DNA of 47,260 nt from an uncultured Veillonellaceae bacterium (GCA_900315615.1 OMZT01000007.1:1-47260); one strand, 5' to 3'. Numbered from the stretch's first letter, positions 164-29,837 are shown. Program-made: numbers and translations. Notes: generated from the letters alone by a model not told the origin.

Positions 164-196
164 TCTCTTGACGATATGGGGGTGGGACGATTGAAG

Positions 197-826
197 ATGA
201 TGAAATGTTGTTTTGCAGCCTTTTTTGCATTCCTGCTGCTGATGGTATCTGCTTCAGCGGAGGCCGCAGGAAACGTTCAGGACATAGATTTTACATGCAA
301 GGGCATCAGCCTCGGTATGCGTGAGGCCGATATAAAGGATGCGTTTGGAAAAGAGCTTTTTTCAGAAGAACGCATGGTGATGGGCATCTATATGCGGTAT
401 ATGACCTATGATAAGGGGTATACCATAGGCGTCGCGGTGCGTACGGGCAAGGTGCTCGATATCGTGATCAAAGATAAGGACTATGTTGCGCGCGATGGCG
501 TGAAGTATGGTGCTACCGCATGGAAAATCGAGCAGACATATGGCAAGGCAAACCGTACATTCATAGATGGCGGCAAGGCTTATATATATAAACATCCAGA
601 ACATAAGCGCTGGAAATTGCTGCTGCTGATCGATACAATGGACAATTACCTGTTGTCGTGGAGGATTACTGAGCTGCCATTGGATGGTAAGGAAGCCGAC
701 GAGATGGAGACGACCGATGATTGGGACAATCCAGGCCTTGAGAACAGGATGCTGGGGGAACTGGAGATCGATATAAGTGCTCTCCCGAAGGATGATGGCG
801 AAGTGAAGCTCCGTATAGGTGGTTGA
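197..826 (+). CDS. Secreted protein of unknown function with two related G-x-G-K-like motifs
   Basis: I do not recognise a named family. The start at 197 is chosen because a purine-rich site (GGGGGTGGGA, 178-186) lies about 10 bases upstream; an in-frame ATG at 176 would sit on the probable transcription start. The product, about 209 residues, opens with a clear signal peptide (Lys, a long Ala/Phe/Leu core, and Ala-Glu-Ala as the likely cleavage site near residue 22), so it is exported. The mature part has two similar stretches, one around SLGMREADIKDAFGK and one around KYGATAWKIEQTYGK, each a helix ending in an aromatic-Gly-Lys turn. This is reminiscent of BamE/SmpA-like modules, but that is only a resemblance. 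The stop TGA at 824-826 abuts the start of the next gene, so the two are probably co-transcribed. Confidence 0.75.
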   Translation: MMKCCFAAFFAFLLLMVSASAEAAGNVQDIDFTCKGISLGMREADIKDAFGKELFSEERMVMGIYMRYMTYDKGYTIGVAVRTGKVLDIVIKDKDYVARDGVKYGATAWKIEQTYGKANRTFIDGGKAYIYKHPEHKRWKLLLLIDTMDNYLLSWRITELPLDGKEADEMETTDDWDNPGLENRMLGELEIDISALPKDDGEVKLRIGG

Positions 827-1821: not shown

Positions 1822-1850
1822 TTGAAACGTACATACAAACACGATAAAAT
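1822..1850 (+). promoter_or_regulatory. Sigma-A-type promoter of the CsgG-like operon
   Basis: TTGAAA (1822-1827) and TAAAAT (1845-1850) are 17 bases apart. No other convincing promoter or terminator lies between here and 6243, so the five following genes probably form one transcript. Confidence 0.7.
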
Positions 1851-1901
1851 GATAGTAAAGAATCGTCATGCATGTTATTGCTGCAATGAGGGGTATTTAT
1901 C

Positions 1902-2774
1902 GTGAAAAAGAAGATTTTATGTCTGGCTGTAATGCTGATGCTCCTATGTCAGCCGGCTTTTGCGCAGAAAGTGATCGTAGATGGCGCAGGCGATGATTTG
2001 ACTGGAGCCATGAAAGATGCGTCGCGCAATGCTGTGGAGCGTGTCGTAGGGACTCTGGTCGATTCGACGACGCTCGTGGGCAATGGAAGAGTGCAGATTG
2101 ATCGCATATACATGAAATCACAGGGCTTCATAAAGGATATCGACATATTATCTAAGGAAAAGCGCGATGGTTTGATGTATATCCATGCATGTGTGGATGT
2201 GGACACAGACCCCGACGCAGAGCTCATGGATAATCTGAAGATGGTCATGATGCTGAATGATCCACGTATAGCCGTTGTTGCACTAAGACAAGAAACAAGC
2301 GATAATACGGTCGGTCATGATATGGTGACCGAAACGGCTATGAACGATAAATTGCTCAAGCTGGGATTCACTCATATAGCGGATACGGCAAGCATGTATG
2401 AGACATCGGACATCAACATGCTTGGACAAATATTTGACGGTCAGGCAGATGCGAGACTGGCGGCGAGACTGATAGGCACAGATTACCTCGTCTTGGGGCG
2501 TGCGAGGACGGAATCACATGTCATTTCATTGCCTGATGGTCATGGCGGATATCAGCCGACGCTTCTTAGCACAGGGAATGCGATCTTGACGGTCAGGATC
2601 ATACGCCTCGATACTGGTGAGGTTGCGGCTGTGTTTACGACGAATTCGAGGGGCGTCGGCAATAGTGGCGTTATGGCAGAGCGCAAGGCGCTCATAAATG
2701 CATCGGTAGACGTGGCAGAAAAGATAGAGCAGAAGTTTCGCCATCTGAGTGCGAGCGTAGATGTGGTTCGCTAA
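1902..2774 (+). CDS. Exported FlgT-like/CsgG-like protein, first gene of five
   Basis: The GTG start at 1902 has GAGGGG (1888-1893) about 8 bases upstream. A signal peptide of about 21 residues ends in Ala-Phe-Ala before Gln-Lys-Val. Residues 23-105 resemble the N-terminal domain of flagellar FlgT: an Ala-rich helix with an AVERVVGTLVDS segment and a following GFIKDIDIL strand. From about residue 115 the DPRIAVVALRQE start, the GTDYLVLGRARTE strand and the final VRIIRLDTGEVAAVF hairpin recall the CsgG/TolB-N-type fold found in outer-membrane-linked periplasmic proteins. Length is 290 residues. No lipobox is seen. These fold resemblances are by eye, and no flagellar gene is nearby, so the role is unknown. 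It leads an operon of five exported proteins. Confidence 0.75.
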   Translation: MKKKILCLAVMLMLLCQPAFAQKVIVDGAGDDLTGAMKDASRNAVERVVGTLVDSTTLVGNGRVQIDRIYMKSQGFIKDIDILSKEKRDGLMYIHACVDVDTDPDAELMDNLKMVMMLNDPRIAVVALRQETSDNTVGHDMVTETAMNDKLLKLGFTHIADTASMYETSDINMLGQIFDGQADARLAARLIGTDYLVLGRARTESHVISLPDGHGGYQPTLLSTGNAILTVRIIRLDTGEVAAVFTTNSRGVGNSGVMAERKALINASVDVAEKIEQKFRHLSASVDVVR

Positions 2775-2810
2775 TGTTTGCCACGAAGATATGAATGGGA
2801 GATGAGGGCG

Positions 2811-3458
2811 ATGCTCAGAAAAATCGTATTTCTGTTCTTCATGTTGCTGTTCTGTACTGGGATGTCCTACACCTCAGCAGAGTGCAAGACACTGCCGACT
2901 TTGGGAATGTACCCTTTTAAGAACGATGGTATCATTACCGATGGCTGGGATAGGTCAGACATGGATGCCGTCGATGACTATGCGTACGCGGCACTGGATG
3001 ATACGGGTCTGTTCACGCTACTATCAAGGACCGATCTCAGACAGGTGGTTGACGAGATCGCATTATCCAATACGGGGTTAGTCGATCCCTCAACAGCCGT
3101 ACAGACATTCAGGCTGAAGGGAGCACACTATATACTCGCCGGAAATATCATGGGTGTGACGGCTCGCAAATCTAAGACATCCCTTATAGGGGCGGGCACT
3201 GACAGGTACAAGGTGACGGCGAATGTATCAATGCGGATAATAAATACTGAAACGGGTGAAGTGATCGCAGCCGCCATCGGCAGCGGGACAGCGAAAAAGA
3301 CGGTATCGAAGGCACCGCTTGGAATCATCCGCATAGGTGAGGCAGAGGTCGATAAGCAACAGGTGCTAGATGCATTGAAACTGGCAGTAGATAATGCTGC
3401 AAAGGGGCAGAATGGGATCGCTCAAAAGCTGAAGCGTGTTAATGGCATTGAAAGGTGA
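2811..3458 (+). CDS. Exported CsgG-family-like protein, second gene of five
   Basis: The start at 2811 is preferred because GGGAGA lies about 8 bases upstream and the product then begins with a good signal peptide (MLRKIVFLFFMLLF, likely cleavage near Thr-Ser-Ala). ATG 2802 and TTG 2778 are in-frame alternatives. The mature protein is the clearest CsgG-like member of the set: LGMYPFKNDG at the first strand, TGLFTLLSRTDLRQVVDE as the conserved helix, and GAHYILAGNIMGVTA as the following strand, then VSMRIINTETGEVIAAA. CsgG forms the outer-membrane pore for curli secretion, but this protein lacks a lipid-attachment cysteine in a proper lipobox and no curli subunit genes are nearby, so a curli role is not supported. 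Confidence 0.8.
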   Translation: MLRKIVFLFFMLLFCTGMSYTSAECKTLPTLGMYPFKNDGIITDGWDRSDMDAVDDYAYAALDDTGLFTLLSRTDLRQVVDEIALSNTGLVDPSTAVQTFRLKGAHYILAGNIMGVTARKSKTSLIGAGTDRYKVTANVSMRIINTETGEVIAAAIGSGTAKKTVSKAPLGIIRIGEAEVDKQQVLDALKLAVDNAAKGQNGIAQKLKRVNGIER

Positions 3459-3468
3459 TGATGGATAT

Positions 3469-4293
3469 ATGAAAAGAACATTCTATATCCTCTGCCTGGT
3501 TGCTTGTATCATAATGCCGCCGTCTGTCACATATGCAGATGGATTTATGAATGGTGCATCAAAGCATACGATACTGCTTGCTGAAGTGCAGAGCTACGGT
3601 GACTATGAGCTAAAGAGTGAGTATTTTCAGACATTTGCAGATGAGCTTATTGCAGCGATAAGCGAGAAAGGCGAGTTCAAGGCTATCGGACGCAATTTAT
3701 CCAATATGACGAATGAGGCTGGCAGGCATGATGAAACTGCCACTCCCGAGGATGCTATGATATCAAAGATACATATGGATGCAATCGTGCATGGGCACCA
3801 GTTCGATTATGGCTTTGCAGCGGCAAAGCTGATACGCTATGCAGACAAGACCGTTGGGCGCAATCATTTCTATGATGATGACGCCGTAAAAGCCTGGCGC
3901 AGCCAGCCAAAGGTACTTTACCATCTGACACCACAGGTGATGGAGGAAGCGCGAAAGATTTCTATGAAATATGGCGTTGAGTATCTTATGTTCGTCAACA
4001 TGAAAGATGTCGACGTGAGGCTCAAGCATACGATGTTCGCATCGCGTACTGAGCGTGAGACGCGTGGCAAGAAAATGAAGGCATCACTTGACTATTATAT
4101 CGTAAACATGCAAAGCGGAAGAGTCTATGAGGGACATACCGATAATAAGAAGACCGCACAATTACTGAATCTTGCTATCGTTCAGCTTGGAAAGGGCATG
4201 GATGTAGATATGATGCTCAACCAGGTCATGGATACACAGGTCAATGATGTGGTAAATGATCTATATGAGCATGCCCTGCTAGTCTCTAGGTGA
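3469..4293 (+). CDS. Exported protein of unknown function, third gene of five
   Basis: The ATG at 3469 is preceded by AAAGGTG (3451-3457) and gives a normal signal peptide ending near Thr-Tyr-Ala-Asp; upstream in-frame starts would overlap the previous gene. The product has 274 residues. An N-terminal strand (HTILLAEV), a helix (FADELIAAISEKGEF) and a later YGVEYLMFVNMKDVDV strand followed by LDYYIVNMQSGRVYEG keep the strand-helix-strand layout of its CsgG-like neighbours, but with a long central insertion (residues about 70-150) not seen in them. It is probably a diverged relative, with function unknown. Only 10 bases separate it from the genes on either side. Confidence 0.7.
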   Translation: MKRTFYILCLVACIIMPPSVTYADGFMNGASKHTILLAEVQSYGDYELKSEYFQTFADELIAAISEKGEFKAIGRNLSNMTNEAGRHDETATPEDAMISKIHMDAIVHGHQFDYGFAAAKLIRYADKTVGRNHFYDDDAVKAWRSQPKVLYHLTPQVMEEARKISMKYGVEYLMFVNMKDVDVRLKHTMFASRTERETRGKKMKASLDYYIVNMQSGRVYEGHTDNKKTAQLLNLAIVQLGKGMDVDMMLNQVMDTQVNDVVNDLYEHALLVSR

Positions 4294-4303
4294 GGTGATA
4301 TAG

Positions 4304-4924
4304 GTGAAACGTGGTATTCATTTCGGTTGGATGCTATCCATCTGCCTGCTGATTTCGCTAAGCTTTATGGATCCTGAGTGCCAGGCGGATGAGAGGAAGC
4401 CTGTGATCATACTGGCAGGCTTTGAAAGCCGCGTTACCTGTATCGATGCCCATATCACAGAGGGGAACATGCTGCCGGTCGTTCGCGAGACGTTATACGA
4501 GAAGCTCATTGATACGGGTAAATATACCATCAGGGATATATCGGATGAGACTCAGCATATACAGATGGACGAGAAGAAATTGATGGATGAACTCGGAGAG
4601 GGTAGGATATCACCACAGCTAAAAAAGGATGCTGACTTTATCATATATGGCTACTTGACACATATCAGTAACGTGAAGGCGCAGAGCGGTGTGCTCGGCA
4701 TACGTGGCAAGGATGTCACAGTCAGCCTTGAGCTGACGTTACGAGTGGTTGACGCCAGAACCGGTGTCGTAGTATTTGCAGCAAAGGGAGATGCGAGACG
4801 CAAGAGTGAACTGAAGTATAACGTGATATTATCGCGCAATGACAAGGGCTATGAGGATGCCGTGGAGAATGCTTTGCGCATTGCAGCTGTCAATCTTGCA
4901 GATGAGATGATAAGGATGTCTTGA
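4304..4924 (+). CDS. Small exported CsgG-like protein, fourth gene of five
   Basis: The GTG start at 4304 has AGGTGATATAG just upstream. The 206-residue product has a signal peptide of about 28 residues ending near Cys-Gln-Ala. The mature part follows the CsgG-like pattern: VIILAGFES first strand, LYEKLIDTGKYTIRD helix and turn, ADFIIYGYLTHI strand, and VSLELTLRVVDARTGVVVFAAKG hairpin (quoted in part). No lipobox is evident; the cysteine near the end of the signal peptide is not in a standard context. The stop overlaps the upstream sequence of the fifth gene, in keeping with a single transcript. Confidence 0.75.
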   Translation: MKRGIHFGWMLSICLLISLSFMDPECQADERKPVIILAGFESRVTCIDAHITEGNMLPVVRETLYEKLIDTGKYTIRDISDETQHIQMDEKKLMDELGEGRISPQLKKDADFIIYGYLTHISNVKAQSGVLGIRGKDVTVSLELTLRVVDARTGVVVFAAKGDARRKSELKYNVILSRNDKGYEDAVENALRIAAVNLADEMIRMS

Positions 4925-4950
4925 GTGGCTTTCAGAAGGGAATGTTTTGT

Positions 4951-6213
4951 ATGACGAGCATGAAGAAGAAACTCTGTGTGCTGCTTACATGTGTCAACAT
5001 GTTTTCAGTCCTTGCGATGGGAATAGCAAGCGCAGAGGGCAATATTTGGATGAATGAGAATACGGACATCCCTGCCAGCAGGTACAAGAAAGTCGCGGTT
5101 TACCCAATCTGCTATCCAGGAGAGACGGATGGTGACTATATGCATGATCCGGAGTATAACGACCTGTTGCTGAAGAGACTCAATAAGCGTGAAAAGGGTA
5201 TAAACTGGATGGGTTTTTCACCGATGATAGAGGAAAAGGAGCACATACTGCGCGACAATCCGGAGTATGACCGCCTCCTTACGCATTTTCCTACAGAAAA
5301 AGACCGTGCTAAGGCAGTATATGATGCAACAGCGGCAGATGGCTATCTGCTGCCGCGTGTACAGCTTGATAAGGTTCGGATAGATCACTCGCCAGAGGTC
5401 TGGACGACGGTGAAGATGGAATCATATTATGATATCAGGAACGGCAGGAATGGTGATGAAGATATGGTGCATTATCATTCCTGGTATGAGCCTTATGTGA
5501 TTTCGGCACACGATAGTGAGCTGCGCATGCTCGATGTCGATTTCACGATGATAGATTGCCGTACGGGAGAGCCGTCACTGACACTTGTAGATTATTATCG
5601 CGTATATGACTGCGATAAGAGCCATGCGTTCAAGCAGATATTCAAGAATTTTGCAGGCGATTTCAGCCGGCAGAAAAACGACAAAGTGCAGGAGGTGCCA
5701 GCAGGCGCACCAGAACTTGGATTCAAGAATCTTGAATTGCCAGTTGACGCTTCAAATAACGAACTATCTGTGAAGACCATATACTATGCGTACAAGGATA
5801 CAGCAGGTGACAGGCTGAAAAAGGTCAAGGCGGTATATGAGCCAAGGGATACGCGGTATTATGTCACAGGCAGTATAAAAGCATATGATATGGGAGAGAC
5901 ATGGAACCCGCCGCACGTGACAACGGATACGGTTCTTGATCATACCGATAAGTACGATTGGTATGACAGTGATGGAAAAAAACATACGGCCGAGAAGAAA
6001 TACTACAGAACCCAGGTCACCGAACATTATGGCTGCTATTCATTTTGGTATCATGTTGCCGCTGACCTGAAAGTAGTCGACTCGCTTACGGGACGGACGG
6101 TATTGGAGAATTACTATGAATATACCGACCCGGACCGCTTTGGCAATGCGCTGCGTGGCGTATTCAATGCATTTTATGATGATGTGGATGGCACGCTGGG
6201 CAAGAGCGTATGA
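4951..6213 (+). CDS. Large exported protein of unknown function, fifth gene of five
   Basis: The ATG at 4951 follows AGAAGGGA (4934-4941) by about 9 bases; ATG 4942 lies too close to it and 4960 is also possible. The 420-residue product has a signal peptide ending near Ala-Ser-Ala-Glu. It starts with RYKKVAVYPICYPGE, a strand like those opening the other four proteins, then a charged region rich in Tyr, Asp and Lys. Two segments of similar layout, around YDIRNGRNGDEDM and around YYRTQVTEHYGCYSF, each lead into a strand plus a DxxTGxxxLxxYY-type hairpin (IDCRTGEPSLTLVDYYR and VVDSLTGRTVLENYYEY). This suggests an internal duplication of the same fold. No family is recognised. Confidence 0.7.
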   Translation: MTSMKKKLCVLLTCVNMFSVLAMGIASAEGNIWMNENTDIPASRYKKVAVYPICYPGETDGDYMHDPEYNDLLLKRLNKREKGINWMGFSPMIEEKEHILRDNPEYDRLLTHFPTEKDRAKAVYDATAADGYLLPRVQLDKVRIDHSPEVWTTVKMESYYDIRNGRNGDEDMVHYHSWYEPYVISAHDSELRMLDVDFTMIDCRTGEPSLTLVDYYRVYDCDKSHAFKQIFKNFAGDFSRQKNDKVQEVPAGAPELGFKNLELPVDASNNELSVKTIYYAYKDTAGDRLKKVKAVYEPRDTRYYVTGSIKAYDMGETWNPPHVTTDTVLDHTDKYDWYDSDGKKHTAEKKYYRTQVTEHYGCYSFWYHVAADLKVVDSLTGRTVLENYYEYTDPDRFGNALRGVFNAFYDDVDGTLGKSV

Positions 6214-6242
6214 CAAGCCATAGCAGATGAGGGTCATAAGAG

Positions 6243-6284
6243 ATATCCTGATATAGTTTTTTGACTGTATCAGGATATTTTTTT
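6243..6284 (+). terminator. Rho-independent terminator ending the CsgG-like operon
   Basis: ATATCCTGATA pairs with TATCAGGATAT across a short loop and is followed by seven or more T residues. It separates the operon from mraZ. Confidence 0.85.
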
Positions 6285-24973: not shown

Positions 24974-25732
24974 TTATCTGAGTACACGGCTCGATATGAT
25001 ATTTGAGCTAACTGCGTCGACCAGTACGGCATAATGCACGTTGCCCTTACTGCAGAGCACTCTATATACCGGGTGCAGGTTGTGCGCGTGATGTGCATCA
25101 TTTTCAGGGAAAGTGGTATCCTTTCCAGAACTGCCTTTTGGATCTTGCACAGGCTGCATATGATGTTCGTCATGACCATTGAACCCCTTATCATTTATAC
25201 CAGGCATATCATCATGGTGAGGTCCTTGTCCTGGCCTGAAGTCATCTGGTGCCATGCCATCATGGTGAGGTCCTTGTCCTGACCTGAAGCCATCTGGTGC
25301 CATGCCATTATGGTGAGGATGATTCCTTTGGTCATATCCATTGAAATCGCCATGGGGTTCATGTTCGTTGAACTCGTTATGCCTGTGTTCACGATGATGA
25401 GGCGTGGCGCTAAAAAGATCCTTCTTTAATGATACGTTATCAAAGGTCAAGTCCGACTCCGTAAGGCCGATTGCCTGTGCAGCAGCAGCTTTGGCTTCAT
25501 CTTCAGATATGATGGTGATGCCGCTTTGCTCTGCCTGCGATGCGACCATCTGCGTTTCGGCCAGGTCACACTCACGATGCATAGCTATTGCACGCTGGTG
25601 GTGCCAGTAGGATCCTATACCTCCGACAGCGGCAAGAATGGCAATGGAGGCAATAGCACGTTTTGCATTCTTTTTCGTGAAGATCCTTTCAGAGATGTTT
25701 TTCGATGTTGTATTCTGTTCATTTTTTTCCAT
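24974..25732 (-). CDS. Membrane-anchored PepSY-domain protein with histidine-rich insertion
   Basis: A 252-residue protein. AAGGAGG just upstream of the ATG at 25732 sets the start. A cytoplasmic tail is followed by one membrane segment (AIASIAILAAVGGIGSYW, about residues 26-43), which probably leaves the rest outside the membrane. A PepSY domain begins near residue 71 (ITIISEDEAKAAAAQAIGL) and finishes at the C-terminus (VYRVLCSKGNVHYAVLVDA). Between its halves sits an insertion of about 110 residues with roughly 20 histidines, many Asp and Met, including two copies of a 16-residue unit beginning His-His-x-Gly-Met. PepSY domains are often inhibitory or sensory; the insertion suggests metal binding, which is inference. 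It is transcribed away from the kinase/regulator pair. Confidence 0.88.
   Translation of the reverse strand: MEKNEQNTTSKNISERIFTKKNAKRAIASIAILAAVGGIGSYWHHQRAIAMHRECDLAETQMVASQAEQSGITIISEDEAKAAAAQAIGLTESDLTFDNVSLKKDLFSATPHHREHRHNEFNEHEPHGDFNGYDQRNHPHHNGMAPDGFRSGQGPHHDGMAPDDFRPGQGPHHDDMPGINDKGFNGHDEHHMQPVQDPKGSSGKDTTFPENDAHHAHNLHPVYRVLCSKGNVHYAVLVDAVSSNIISSRVLR
25210..25318 (-). repeat. 48-base tandem repeat inside the PepSY gene
   Basis: Two nearly identical 48-base units (25210-25257 and 25258-25305) and a partial third copy encode HHDGMAPDDFRPGQGP, HHNGMAPDGFRSGQGP and a His-His-Asp-Asp-Met start. The unit length keeps the frame, so copy number could vary without breaking the gene. Confidence 0.9.
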
Positions 25733-25778
25733 GATGTTCTCCTCCTTGACGTATGTACTGTTGATTTCTATGCTTCGC

Positions 25779-25811
25779 ATTATACTGATGTAACTTAAAC
25801 GTAAGCTAAAC
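25779..25811 (-). promoter_or_regulatory. PepSY gene promoter with PhoP-box-like direct repeat
   Basis: Read on the minus strand, GTTTA occurs at 25811-25807 and 25800-25796, an exact 11-base period (AGTTTA-N5-CGTTTA), followed after 11 bases by a perfect TATAAT (25784-25779). The extended repeat matches at 9 of 11 positions. This is the layout of the enterobacterial PhoP box, where the repeat replaces the -35 element. There is no good -35 here either. The OmpR-family regulator encoded at 27518-28225 is the natural candidate to bind it. Confidence 0.65.
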
Positions 25812-25907
25812 TCTGGCATAACACTTGCATAAAATTGATATGGCAGAGCGGTTTTTTTCTATGTGATGTGATATCATATGATTAGAAGGCGTCGCGGAGG
25901 GAAAATG

Positions 25908-27521
25908 ATGAACATACGTGATATATCATTATATAAGAGACTTTTGATAACTAACATGCTGATGGTGCTCATCCCTGTACTGATACTGGCCGTTATCGGC
26001 ATTGTACTCATGACAGGCCTCAGATCTGCCGGAACCGCCAGGCAGAATGATCTTGCAGCCATCTGGCCCCAAAGGGGACCGGCATTATCTATTCAGTATG
26101 CCTTGAATGGATTGCGTGCGGAATCGATAGGACGTCATGGGCAAGCCCCGGATATAAATGAGATGAAGGATGAGATTTCGATACTGGAAAATCAGGGCAT
26201 ACACGTCGCTATCATATATAAGGATGAACCTGTCTATGTTACAGAGGGTGTATCTGCCGAGAACATCAAAAATAAGGTGATTAGAAAGACAGGTGATAAA
26301 CTTTCCGGACTGCTTTGGGATGATGAAGGGATGGCGTTTGTTGCTGCTGCACCGCCACCTCATCCCATGCAAAGTATGGAAAAACCAGCTCATAAGCATA
26401 ATATGGGTAAATTGAATGGATCACATGGACATGTAGAGGACGATGTCTTGCCGCCGAGACATGCTATGAAGGCAGATGCATCAAAGGGAACTGTCATTTA
26501 TGCTGAAGGGCGTATGCCCTTCCTGGCACAGACTCATATGAGGCCGGGGCCAGCAAAGGAAGTGTTTCAGCGACTGCTTACCGTGTCCATACTTGCAGCT
26601 GTTTTCCTTATTGTCATGCTTGGATGGTATCTTTCGCGTGTCCTTTTGCGCCAGATATTGGAGCCGCTGCAGCTGCTGAGGGCATCAGCTGCGGCAATAC
26701 GTGAAGGGGATCTCGATACGACGGTGCATGTGAATTCCAATGATGAGATAGGAGAGGTATGCAAGGACTTTGACGATATGCGTGAGGCACTTAGGAAAGC
26801 GGCTGAGCAGAGAGCAAGGGACGAAGCAGGAAGACGAGAGCTTATCGCCGGCATTTCTCATGATATTGCTACGCCGCTCACACTGTTGAAGGGATATTCT
26901 GATGGGCTTATAGCCGGTGTCGCAAAAACACCAGAAAAACGCCATAAGTATCTTGAACGTATAAGCCATGCGGCAGATACGATGGCTGTGCTGGTAGATC
27001 AGCTCTTTACGTTCTCGAAGCTCGAACTCGGGCGCATAGAGTTCAAGATGGAAAACGTAGATATGGGAGAATTTATCAAAGGAATAGTCGATGATCATGC
27101 CGATAGCTTATGTGAACAGGGAGTACGACTCAATGTAAAAGCAACGGCATCAGATGCGCGTGCATTGATAGACCGTATGCAGATGACCAGAGTCTTTACT
27201 AATATTATTTCAAACAGCTGTAAGTATAACGAGCAGAGGCCGCTGGATATAGATATCTCACTAGAATGCAGGGATCAGATGTATTTAAAGGTAGCAGATC
27301 ATGGAAGAGGTGTGCCGGAAGCGTTGTTGCCAAAGCTTTTTGAGAGCTTCTACCGTGTGGACAGTGCGAGAACAGACAATACAAAGGGCAGTGGATTAGG
27401 CCTGGCTATTTGCCGTGAGATCATCATACAGATGGGAGGCAGTATCATAGCGGAAAATACGCCAGGGGGCGGACTGACGATAAATATCATTTTGCCATGC
27501 CATAAGGAGGACGTATCATGA
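25908..27521 (+). CDS. Sensor histidine kinase with histidine-rich extracytoplasmic domain
   Basis: A membrane-bound two-component kinase of about 537 residues. GGAGGG at 25896-25901 fits ATG 25908 best (25905 and 25878 are possible). The first membrane segment (LLITNMLMVLIPVLILAVIGIVLM, quoted in parts) is followed by about 180 residues outside. These include a Pro/His/Met-rich stretch near residues 150-190 (PPPHPMQSM, AHKHNMG, SHGHVEDD). Then come a second membrane segment, a HAMP domain (LEPLQLLRASAAAIREGDLD), and the kinase core: H-box GISHDIATPLTLLKGY, N-box NIISNSCKYN, DHGRGVPE and GSGLGLAICREI. The last codons overlap the regulator gene by 4 bases. Its ligand may be a metal ion, judging from the histidines and the similar PepSY neighbour; that is inference. 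Confidence 0.95.
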   Translation: MNIRDISLYKRLLITNMLMVLIPVLILAVIGIVLMTGLRSAGTARQNDLAAIWPQRGPALSIQYALNGLRAESIGRHGQAPDINEMKDEISILENQGIHVAIIYKDEPVYVTEGVSAENIKNKVIRKTGDKLSGLLWDDEGMAFVAAAPPPHPMQSMEKPAHKHNMGKLNGSHGHVEDDVLPPRHAMKADASKGTVIYAEGRMPFLAQTHMRPGPAKEVFQRLLTVSILAAVFLIVMLGWYLSRVLLRQILEPLQLLRASAAAIREGDLDTTVHVNSNDEIGEVCKDFDDMREALRKAAEQRARDEAGRRELIAGISHDIATPLTLLKGYSDGLIAGVAKTPEKRHKYLERISHAADTMAVLVDQLFTFSKLELGRIEFKMENVDMGEFIKGIVDDHADSLCEQGVRLNVKATASDARALIDRMQMTRVFTNIISNSCKYNEQRPLDIDISLECRDQMYLKVADHGRGVPEALLPKLFESFYRVDSARTDNTKGSGLGLAICREIIIQMGGSIIAENTPGGGLTINIILPCHKEDVS

Positions 27522-28225
27522 AGAAGATACTTATTATAGAAGATAATCGTGAAATCGCAGAGATGGAACAAGATTTCCTGGAAGCCGAGGACTTTGAGAC
27601 TGAAATCGCATGTGATGGCGCAAACGGCGCCAGGATGGCTATCGACGGAGATTATGCACTCGTATTGCTCGATATCATGCTTCCTGGTATGGACGGTTTC
27701 CAGGTGTTGAAAAAGATACGTGAGCGTAAGGAAGTGCCGGTGCTTATCGTCTCGGCAAAGAGAGAGGAAACGGATAAGATCAGGGGACTCGGTATAGGTG
27801 CCGATGATTACATCACGAAACCGTTCAGTCCAGGAGAACTGGTAGCCCGCGTGAAATCTCATATAAAGCGCTTTGAGAGAGTTTCTGCATTAGCTATGCC
27901 TCAAAAGAAAGATATGCGCTTTGGTAAGCTTCTGATAGAGCCGGAAAAGCACAGAGTTTTCGTAGATGAAAGGGAAGTGGTGCTTACCCATAAGGAATTT
28001 GAGGTACTTGAATTCCTGGCGGAAAATCCGGGAATCGTATTCAGCAGGGAGCAGATCTTTGACAGAGTGTGGAGCGTCGATGCTATAGGCGATACATCTA
28101 CGGTAATGGTTCATATCAATCGCATACGTAGTAAGATTGAGAAGGATCCATCGCATCCAAAATATATTGAGACAATACGTGGAACGGGATATCGTTTTTC
28201 TGAATTAGATCAGTTGATTGAATAA
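27518..28225 (+). CDS. OmpR/PhoB-family response regulator
   Basis: The partner of the kinase before it, joined by an ATGA overlap. The 235-residue protein has a receiver domain with the acidic pair near residues 9-10, the phosphorylated aspartate D52 (LLDIMLPGMDGF), Ser79 and K101 (TKPFSPGEL). A winged-helix domain follows (residues about 130-230) with LTHKEFEVLEFLAENPG and the recognition helix region DTSTVMVHINRIRSKIE, ending in IRGTGYRF. It probably controls the divergent PepSY gene through the 11-base repeat at 25790-25811; the cstA gene just downstream is a possible second target. Confidence 0.96.
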   Translation: MKKILIIEDNREIAEMEQDFLEAEDFETEIACDGANGARMAIDGDYALVLLDIMLPGMDGFQVLKKIRERKEVPVLIVSAKREETDKIRGLGIGADDYITKPFSPGELVARVKSHIKRFERVSALAMPQKKDMRFGKLLIEPEKHRVFVDEREVVLTHKEFEVLEFLAENPGIVFSREQIFDRVWSVDAIGDTSTVMVHINRIRSKIEKDPSHPKYIETIRGTGYRFSELDQLIE

Positions 28226-28394: not shown

Positions 28395-29837
28395 ATGGTA
28401 ACATTCCTTATAGCTTTGTTAGCACTTATTCTTGGATATGTGCTCTATAGCAGGGTGGTAGATCACATTTTCCATCCTACTGACAAACCGACGCCGGCGA
28501 CGATACATAATGATGGTGTTGACTATATTCCGTTGCCGACATGGAAAGTATTCCTCATTCAGCTGCTCAACATAGCAGGACTTGGACCTATATTTGGTGC
28601 GCTTGGAGGTGCACTGTGGGGACCAAGCGTATATCTTTGGATCGTACTTGGTACTATCTTCGCCGGAGGCGTACATGACTACATGTCTGGTATGATATCG
28701 CTTCGTGAAGATGGTAAGAGCATATCAGAGGTCGTCGGTAACCATATGGGCTCGACAATGCTGATGATCATGCGTGTATTCTCTGTTATCCTGCTGATCC
28801 TCGTTGGTACGGTGTTTATGACAGGACCTGCAATGCTCCTTTCTAAGTTGACAGGTTGGGCAGTATCCCCATGGCTGCTTATCATCCTCCTATATTTTTT
28901 CATTGCAACGTTGCTGCCTATCGATACGATCATAGCACGTTTCTATCCATTGTTCGGTATCTGCCTTATCGTAATGGCTCTTGGCATCATGGGCGGTATG
29001 CTCCTCGGTGTCGGTGGTCATGAGATGCCTGAGTTGGTTCTCCAGAACCTCCATCCGGCAGGACCGGATAAGATGCCTATTTGGCCGCTTATGTTCATAA
29101 CCGTTGCGTGCGGTGCAGTTTCTGGATTCCATTCTACACAGTCACCGATTATGGCACGCTGCCTGAAGAAAGAGAGCCTGGCTCGCCCTGTCTTCTACGG
29201 TGCAATGGTAGCTGAAGGTATTATTGCACTTATCTGGGCTGCTGCTGGTGTTACGTTCTACGATGGTACAGGTGGACTTCAGGCTGCGATGAAGGCTGGA
29301 GGACCTGGTGGCGCTGTCTATGATATCTGTATCGGATTCATGGGCGCTGGCGCAGGTGCTGTCCTGGCAATGCTCGGCGTTATATTCTGCCCGATCACTT
29401 CCGGTGATACGGCATTCCGCTCTGCAAGGCTTACGCTTTCTGACTGGTTCAATATCCCACAGGTCAAGGCTGGAAAGCGTCTCATGCTCGCTGTTCCTAT
29501 CCTTGGTATCGGTGCTATTCTCTCACAGATCGATTTCACTATCGTATGGAGATATTTCTCCTGGACCAACCAGACACTGGCTATGATAGTTCTTTGGACT
29601 GGTGCGGTATATATCTATCGCACGTTCAAGGGTAAGGGCTGGCTTGTTGCAGCAATCCCGGCAACCTTCATGTCGGCTGTTACGACGACATATATTCTTC
29701 AGGCTCCTGAAGGTTTTCAGCTGCCTACCAGCATTACATATCCAGTCGGTATAGTGTTTGGTATCTTGTTCCTGCTCCTTTATCTGCGTGTTACGGTTAT
29801 GCGCGGACCTGCAGGACAGGGTAAACAAGAAGGCTGA
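28395..29837 (+). CDS. cstA: CstA-family carbon starvation/peptide-pyruvate transporter
   Basis: A 480-residue integral membrane protein with about 13-14 hydrophobic segments. Signature stretches are NIAGLGPIFGALGGALWGP, GGVHDYMSGMISLREDGKSI (quoted in part), ACGAVSGFHSTQSPIMA and SWTNQTLAMIVLW. In E. coli, family members CstA and BtsT take up peptides or pyruvate; the exact substrate here cannot be read. It is the shorter form (about 480 residues) rather than the 700-residue E. coli type. CGGAGGGAACG precedes the ATG, and its own promoter and structured leader lie upstream. It sits where rpoC often lies, just before the L7Ae-like/rpsL cluster. Confidence 0.93.
   Translation: MVTFLIALLALILGYVLYSRVVDHIFHPTDKPTPATIHNDGVDYIPLPTWKVFLIQLLNIAGLGPIFGALGGALWGPSVYLWIVLGTIFAGGVHDYMSGMISLREDGKSISEVVGNHMGSTMLMIMRVFSVILLILVGTVFMTGPAMLLSKLTGWAVSPWLLIILLYFFIATLLPIDTIIARFYPLFGICLIVMALGIMGGMLLGVGGHEMPELVLQNLHPAGPDKMPIWPLMFITVACGAVSGFHSTQSPIMARCLKKESLARPVFYGAMVAEGIIALIWAAAGVTFYDGTGGLQAAMKAGGPGGAVYDICIGFMGAGAGAVLAMLGVIFCPITSGDTAFRSARLTLSDWFNIPQVKAGKRLMLAVPILGIGAILSQIDFTIVWRYFSWTNQTLAMIVLWTGAVYIYRTFKGKGWLVAAIPATFMSAVTTTYILQAPEGFQLPTSITYPVGIVFGILFLLLYLRVTVMRGPAGQGKQEG

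Follow-up and report, generated by a model that had tools for sequence, protein, structure and literature searches.

Five exported CsgG-fold proteins encoded by one operon of Selenomonadaceae and their possible assembly into a periplasmic ring

We analyzed a 47,260-nucleotide stretch of DNA from an uncultured Veillonellaceae bacterium (GCA_900315615.1, OMZT01000007.1:1-47260; hereafter the window), in which five consecutive genes, here called P1 to P5, encode exported proteins that all contain the CsgG/TolB-N fold. The genes are inherited together in one order, the same neighbors have repeatedly been fused to each other, and the set occurs independently of flagella. We propose, at what we would call an even chance of being right, that P1–P5 are a Sec-exported, soluble set forming a mixed ring or collar in the periplasm under the outer membrane, similar to the H ring but without a flagellum. 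The operon and its candidate signals are as follows.

1822..1850, + strand: sigma-70-type promoter-like site TTGAAA-17-TAAAAT, matching 10/12 positions in a consensus scan, by itself no proof of function
1902..2774, + strand: P1, 290 amino acids, exported; FlgP/FlgT_N-like N-terminal domain followed by a CsgG-fold domain
2811..3458, + strand: P2, 215 amino acids, exported; CsgG family by Pfam
3469..4293, + strand: P3, 274 amino acids, exported; CsgG/FlgT-middle-domain fold, its second strand followed by a conserved helical insert
4304..4924, + strand: P4, 206 amino acids, exported; CsgG fold, nearest to P2
4951..6213, + strand: P5, 420 amino acids, exported; two CsgG/PelC-like domains in tandem (~28-245 and 248-420), both containing a long beta meander
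~6238..6283, + strand: terminator-like hairpin and T tract (-27 kcal/mol, z -6.7)

The initial annotation had read this region as one promoter, five closely spaced genes and a terminator, which the closer analysis bore out. The five open reading frames lie on the + strand, separated in order by 36, 10, 10 and 26 nucleotides, and the promoter-like site is the top-scoring + strand match of the region, although weaker matches are frequent by chance. The hairpin is missing from the hits of the consensus terminator scan, most likely because that scan restricts the loop size and demands G-C pairs. As also annotated, every product begins with a typical Sec signal peptide, as judged by eye, and neither a pattern search nor inspection gave a convincing lipobox in P1–P5; the sole pattern match in the window, LVAC of P3, lies within the hydrophobic core, and the matches in orthologues are mostly of the same kind.

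We then compared the mature protein families, with signal peptides taken off, by profile-profile comparison (hhalign), using reversed alignments as the control. As a result, P2 and P4 matched at 99.5%, the second domain of P1 matched P4 at 94% and P2 at 91%, P2 matched the second half of P3 at 90%, and P3 matched P4 at 79%, against at most ~7% for the reversed controls. The comparison linked P5 to no other family of the operon (best 21%), its profile found no match in the PDB by sequence, and no Pfam family was common to more than one of the P5 relatives. P5 is tied to the CsgG superfamily through its predicted structure only. Indeed, the AlphaFold model of P5 (predicted local distance difference test score, pLDDT, 84.7), with beta strands up to 16-17 residues long, matched PelC at residues 28-243 with a Z score of 12.8, and mostly its residues 248-420 matched PelC, DUF330, CsgG and FlgT with Z scores of 11.6-11.9 (DUF330 11.9); Foldseek returned the same superfamily. 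Since both halves of P5 match this superfamily, the operon encodes six copies of the fold in five proteins.

P3 was modelled alone, because in a joint P3–P4 alignment built for a natural fusion the P4 rows fell on the P3 half. The P3 model (pLDDT 82.8) matched FlgT (Z 12.8), chlamydial CT253 (12.6), DUF330 (10.6), PelC (10.5) and CsgG (10.3) in the PDB, and Foldseek gave FlgT at 1.1e-6 and CsgG at 3.4e-6. The initial annotation, which had recognized a CsgG/TolB-N-like layout by eye in P2, P4 and the C-terminal part of P1, was thus correct and understated, and the profile and structure searches relate the five proteins to one another, to CsgG and to FlgT. The P3 and P5 models show only the N-domain type of fold, with no TolB-type C-terminal beta propeller, and P1, P2 and P4 are too short to hold the fold plus a propeller.

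By Pfam, P2 belongs to the CsgG family (PF03783; 54.4 bits, cut-off 20.8), as do all 30 of 30 relatives tested, while P4 scored 18.0 bits, just under the same cut-off, and 7 of 11 P4 relatives matched at E <= 0.01. P2 also passed the Pfam LpoB cut-off (39.3 bits), 27 of the 30 relatives matched LpoB, and in the window genome the operon adjoins the dcw cell-division cluster, which runs from mraZ on at its 3' side (as read from translations), with a YitT-type membrane protein gene at the 5' side. Both observations would suit a set of peptidoglycan-synthesis regulators that, like LpoB, work in the periplasm by binding and activating a penicillin-binding protein. We consider such a function improbable, since the LpoB equivalog model TIGR02722 gave P2 only 38.5 bits against the 110.55 demanded, the P2-family profile scored CsgG structures (6.6e-9) above LpoB (0.0055), a lipid anchor is absent, and the role needs no five subunits. 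Furthermore, the flanking genes differ between operon copies, and the examined flanks of the other copies held no mraZ or rsmH homologue; the dcw neighborhood was therefore rejected as a functional clue. The flanking genes were identified by eye from translations, save where a family search was run.

The N-terminal domain of P1 is FlgP/FlgT_N-like by profile matches, and the annotated FlgT-like domain holds at the family level. P1 alone was sub-threshold for Pfam FlgT_N (15.3 bits, cut-off 28.8, E 0.03), but 16 of 27 family members matched at E <= 0.01, and the family profile matched a chain of PDB 9hmf (E 2.5e-6), entitled a putative lipoprotein, which we take to be Campylobacter FlgP. Most P1 relatives are ~370 amino acids long and carry a third, C-terminal domain that the P1 of the window lacks.

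To what extent the five genes travel together was assessed in several samples, in which many relatives are metagenome assemblies with mechanical gene calls; the window's own assembly is 94% complete. Among 60 genomes searched, P3 was found in 11 of 37 genomes of the family, including the window's own, and in none outside it, whereas relatives of P1, P2 and P4 are spread wider. A P3-family alignment searched against 84,980 species gave 32 loci, many from rumen samples; apart from one titled Veillonellaceae, every record named Selenomonadaceae, Selenomonadales or a genus of theirs. A contig search with P2 alone returned no relatives. In 150 genomes drawn across the class, strong matches occurred in seven, all of the same family, and one weak match fell outside it. 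The operon is thus essentially confined to Selenomonadaceae and not general to diderm Firmicutes, which revises the annotated specificity to the latter group. Cultured carriers are Selenomonas ruminantium and Mitsuokella.

As the initial annotation anticipated, the genes are kept together in related genomes: 21 operons, the window included, hold the full P1–P5 set in unchanged order, and in the remaining dozen or so loci a contig end truncates the operon, P1 is missing, an additional gene separates P4 from P5, or P5 lies elsewhere. Because the main clades of the P2 tree recur in the P3 tree, the P1–P5 set is inherited together. The extra gene, seen in one clade (L139:9386-10201, also L137, L143 and L103), encodes an exported protein of ~271-285 amino acids, and that of L139 had no Pfam match. 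A paper on the Veillonella outer-membrane proteome makes no mention of CsgG, FlgT, LpoB, TolB or LPP20, and none of the papers searched has both Selenomonas and CsgG.

P3 and P4 form a single protein in L114, a locus close to the window, and in a distant clade (L126, L127 and L130), and three loci have the N-terminal domain of P1 joined directly to P2, namely L114 with L115 and, from a separate clade, L096. Each pair was thus fused independently at least twice. Independent fusion of the same neighbors is classic indirect evidence for physical association, and its repetition here suggests that the fused neighbors pair physically, which fits the hetero-oligomer supposed in the initial annotation. 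An alternative is that the five are co-transcribed exported proteins that were amplified by duplication and act separately, with no joint complex. The patchy occurrence within the family, the versatility of the fold and the indirect nature of the contacts drawn between P1–P5 speak for separate action; we nevertheless give it a low probability, because the gene order is fixed across deep divergence and the same neighbors were fused again and again.

We next consider the relation to flagella and curli. The initial annotation had noted the absence of both kinds of gene, and indeed no flagellar genes were recognized in the operon flanks examined, and Curlin_rpt had no match in the window's assembly, with a positive E. 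coli control. Mitsuokella multacida carries all five genes, and FlgI was not found in it, whereas most of the FlgI-positive genomes of the 60-genome sample, ~41 of them, have no P3. The survey led us to reject a flagellar role, and the annotated relation to FlgT holds at the level of domains but not for the operon, which does not follow flagella. A role as accessory ring of the flagellum, in the manner of the Vibrio H ring (FlgT, FlgO, FlgP), would account for the N-terminal domain of P1 and the structural matches of P3 and P5 to FlgT, but it already runs counter to these data and we regard it as highly improbable.

A related three-gene set (CsgG-like, P1-like and LPP20) occurs in other Negativicutes, its domain kinds resembling FlgO, FlgT and FlgP. 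In one genome (G014) the set, at L147:6366-9275, has MCE/ABC transporter genes on one side and, on the other, flagellar basal-body genes, FlgI among them, within ~6 kb, a location that also favors the flagellar alternative; in the other genomes looked at, it lies away from flagellar genes. Such a set may have given rise to the five-gene operon as a form independent of flagella. Around a P1 homologue at L100, L102 and L104 (genomes G002, G027 and G011) lie larger clusters of exported proteins, with several CsgG-like, LPP20-like and uncharacterized secreted proteins. In the window's own genome, an exported LPP20 (FlgP-like) protein is encoded at L150:5359-6285 (contig C146), just 5' of genes identified by eye as mreB, mreC, mreD and a penicillin-binding protein.

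CsgG, the curli channel, is a nonameric outer-membrane pore, and FlgT is a periplasmic ring protein. The initial annotation had left open a periplasmic or an outer-membrane assembly. At the two sites where CsgG has its membrane hairpins, P2 has 27 residues against 33 in E. coli CsgG, and 29 against ~37 (the latter hand-counted from the CsgG sequence), and 13 of 34 P2 orthologues have next to nothing left of either site. The lack of a lipobox, together with the shortening or loss of these sites, argues for soluble proteins; an outer-membrane pore is unsupported, and the periplasmic side would be favored. The site lengths are, by contrast with those of P2, near-constant in P1 (~30 and 24) and P3 (30-32 and 24-25, with one exception) across orthologues ~30% identical, so that those loops probably have some structural function. 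This constancy, the CsgG-family membership of P2 and the long beta strands of P5 would be expected of a mixed CsgG-type export pore, in which hairpins of several subunits make one beta barrel that secretes a substrate. We find such a pore unlikely, given the state of the P2 sites, the missing lipobox, the genome without curlin, an operon with no obvious substrate gene, and the high charge of the first P3 hairpin site.

In the periplasmic ring that we propose instead, P1–P5 would sit next to one another in a mixed ring, or in several stacked rings, against the outer membrane on its periplasmic side. P1 would provide a FlgT-like layer, P2 and P4 would be closely related ring subunits, and, going by the fusions, P3 would neighbor P4 and P1 would neighbor P2. 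The nearest relatives of solved structure form rings as a rule: the PqiC octamer and the PelC dodecamer are rings under the outer membrane (PMC10897342; also PMC12141448), and the Vibrio H ring contains FlgT and FlgO (PMC6504787). By analogy with the H ring, PelC and PqiC, the assembly might not be the membrane pore itself but serve some other machine of the outer membrane or cell wall as its collar or scaffold, which is the least certain step of the proposal.

Several points weigh against this ring. We infer its existence, its location, the subunit contacts and its job alike, and the fusions suggest contact short of proof. The same fold is found in the monomeric LpoB and the TolB N-domain, and so does not imply a ring, and without lipid anchors or membrane hairpins P1–P5 would lack an evident means of holding one at the outer membrane. 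In addition, P5 lies at a separate locus in two genomes (G006 and G034), and in a third (G021) it was found without P1–P4.

The nearest characterized rings with the CsgG fold, namely CsgG, PelC and PqiC, are each built from a single type of subunit and work for a known partner. If five exported paralogues that stay together and have repeatedly fused in pairs do assemble, the product would be an unusual mixed ring. With rather less than even confidence, we view the set as a flagellum-free, curli-free hetero-oligomeric envelope machine specific to Selenomonadaceae, made entirely of paralogous CsgG-fold subunits, possibly a new complex that transports, tethers or forms a collar at the outer membrane. 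The outer-membrane machinery of this lineage is poorly charted and bears on the evolution of the outer membrane in Firmicutes, and the operon is an example of FlgT/FlgP-type domains employed without a flagellum. Its presence in cultured species makes the system open to testing.

Elsewhere in the window, an exported protein of 216 amino acids is encoded at 176-826 (+), 5' of the YitT-type gene, with sub-threshold matches to DUF7256, DUF4309 and CAP_assoc_N. By eye, a histidine-rich exported protein (24974-25819, -) is divergent from a two-component system (25878-28225, +), which is followed by a CstA-like carbon-starvation transporter (28395-29837); this group is possibly metal-responsive.

Finally, we compared the operon with known systems. 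P2 resembles LpoB in passing its Pfam cut-off, but it falls short of the equivalog model, lacks a lipobox and belongs to a set of five paralogues. Over most of its length, P1 resembles LipL46 of Leptospira (NCBIfam NF033164; 6.8e-7), and 23 of 27 relatives match the same model, yet with 28 bits P1 is far under the equivalog cut-off of 400 and is not a lipoprotein. The CsgG curli channel shares its Pfam family with P2 and its fold with P3 and P5, whereas it has one kind of subunit against five, and the operon has neither lipobox nor curlin and its hairpin sites are short or missing. PelC and PqiC (DUF330; PMC12141448, PMC10897342) are single-kind lipoproteins serving PelB or PqiB; the operon, of five genes only and with variable flanks, encodes no such partner, but these proteins give P5 its best matches among solved folds and P3 some of its best, and their known rings lie against the outer membrane from the periplasmic side. 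The Vibrio H ring (PMC6504787) differs in its link to flagella, the operon being found in a species without FlgI and consisting of five other genes, as a rule with no LPP20 gene; the two are alike in their FlgP/FlgT_N-like and FlgT-middle-like domains, in having several kinds of subunit and in the proposed site under the outer membrane.

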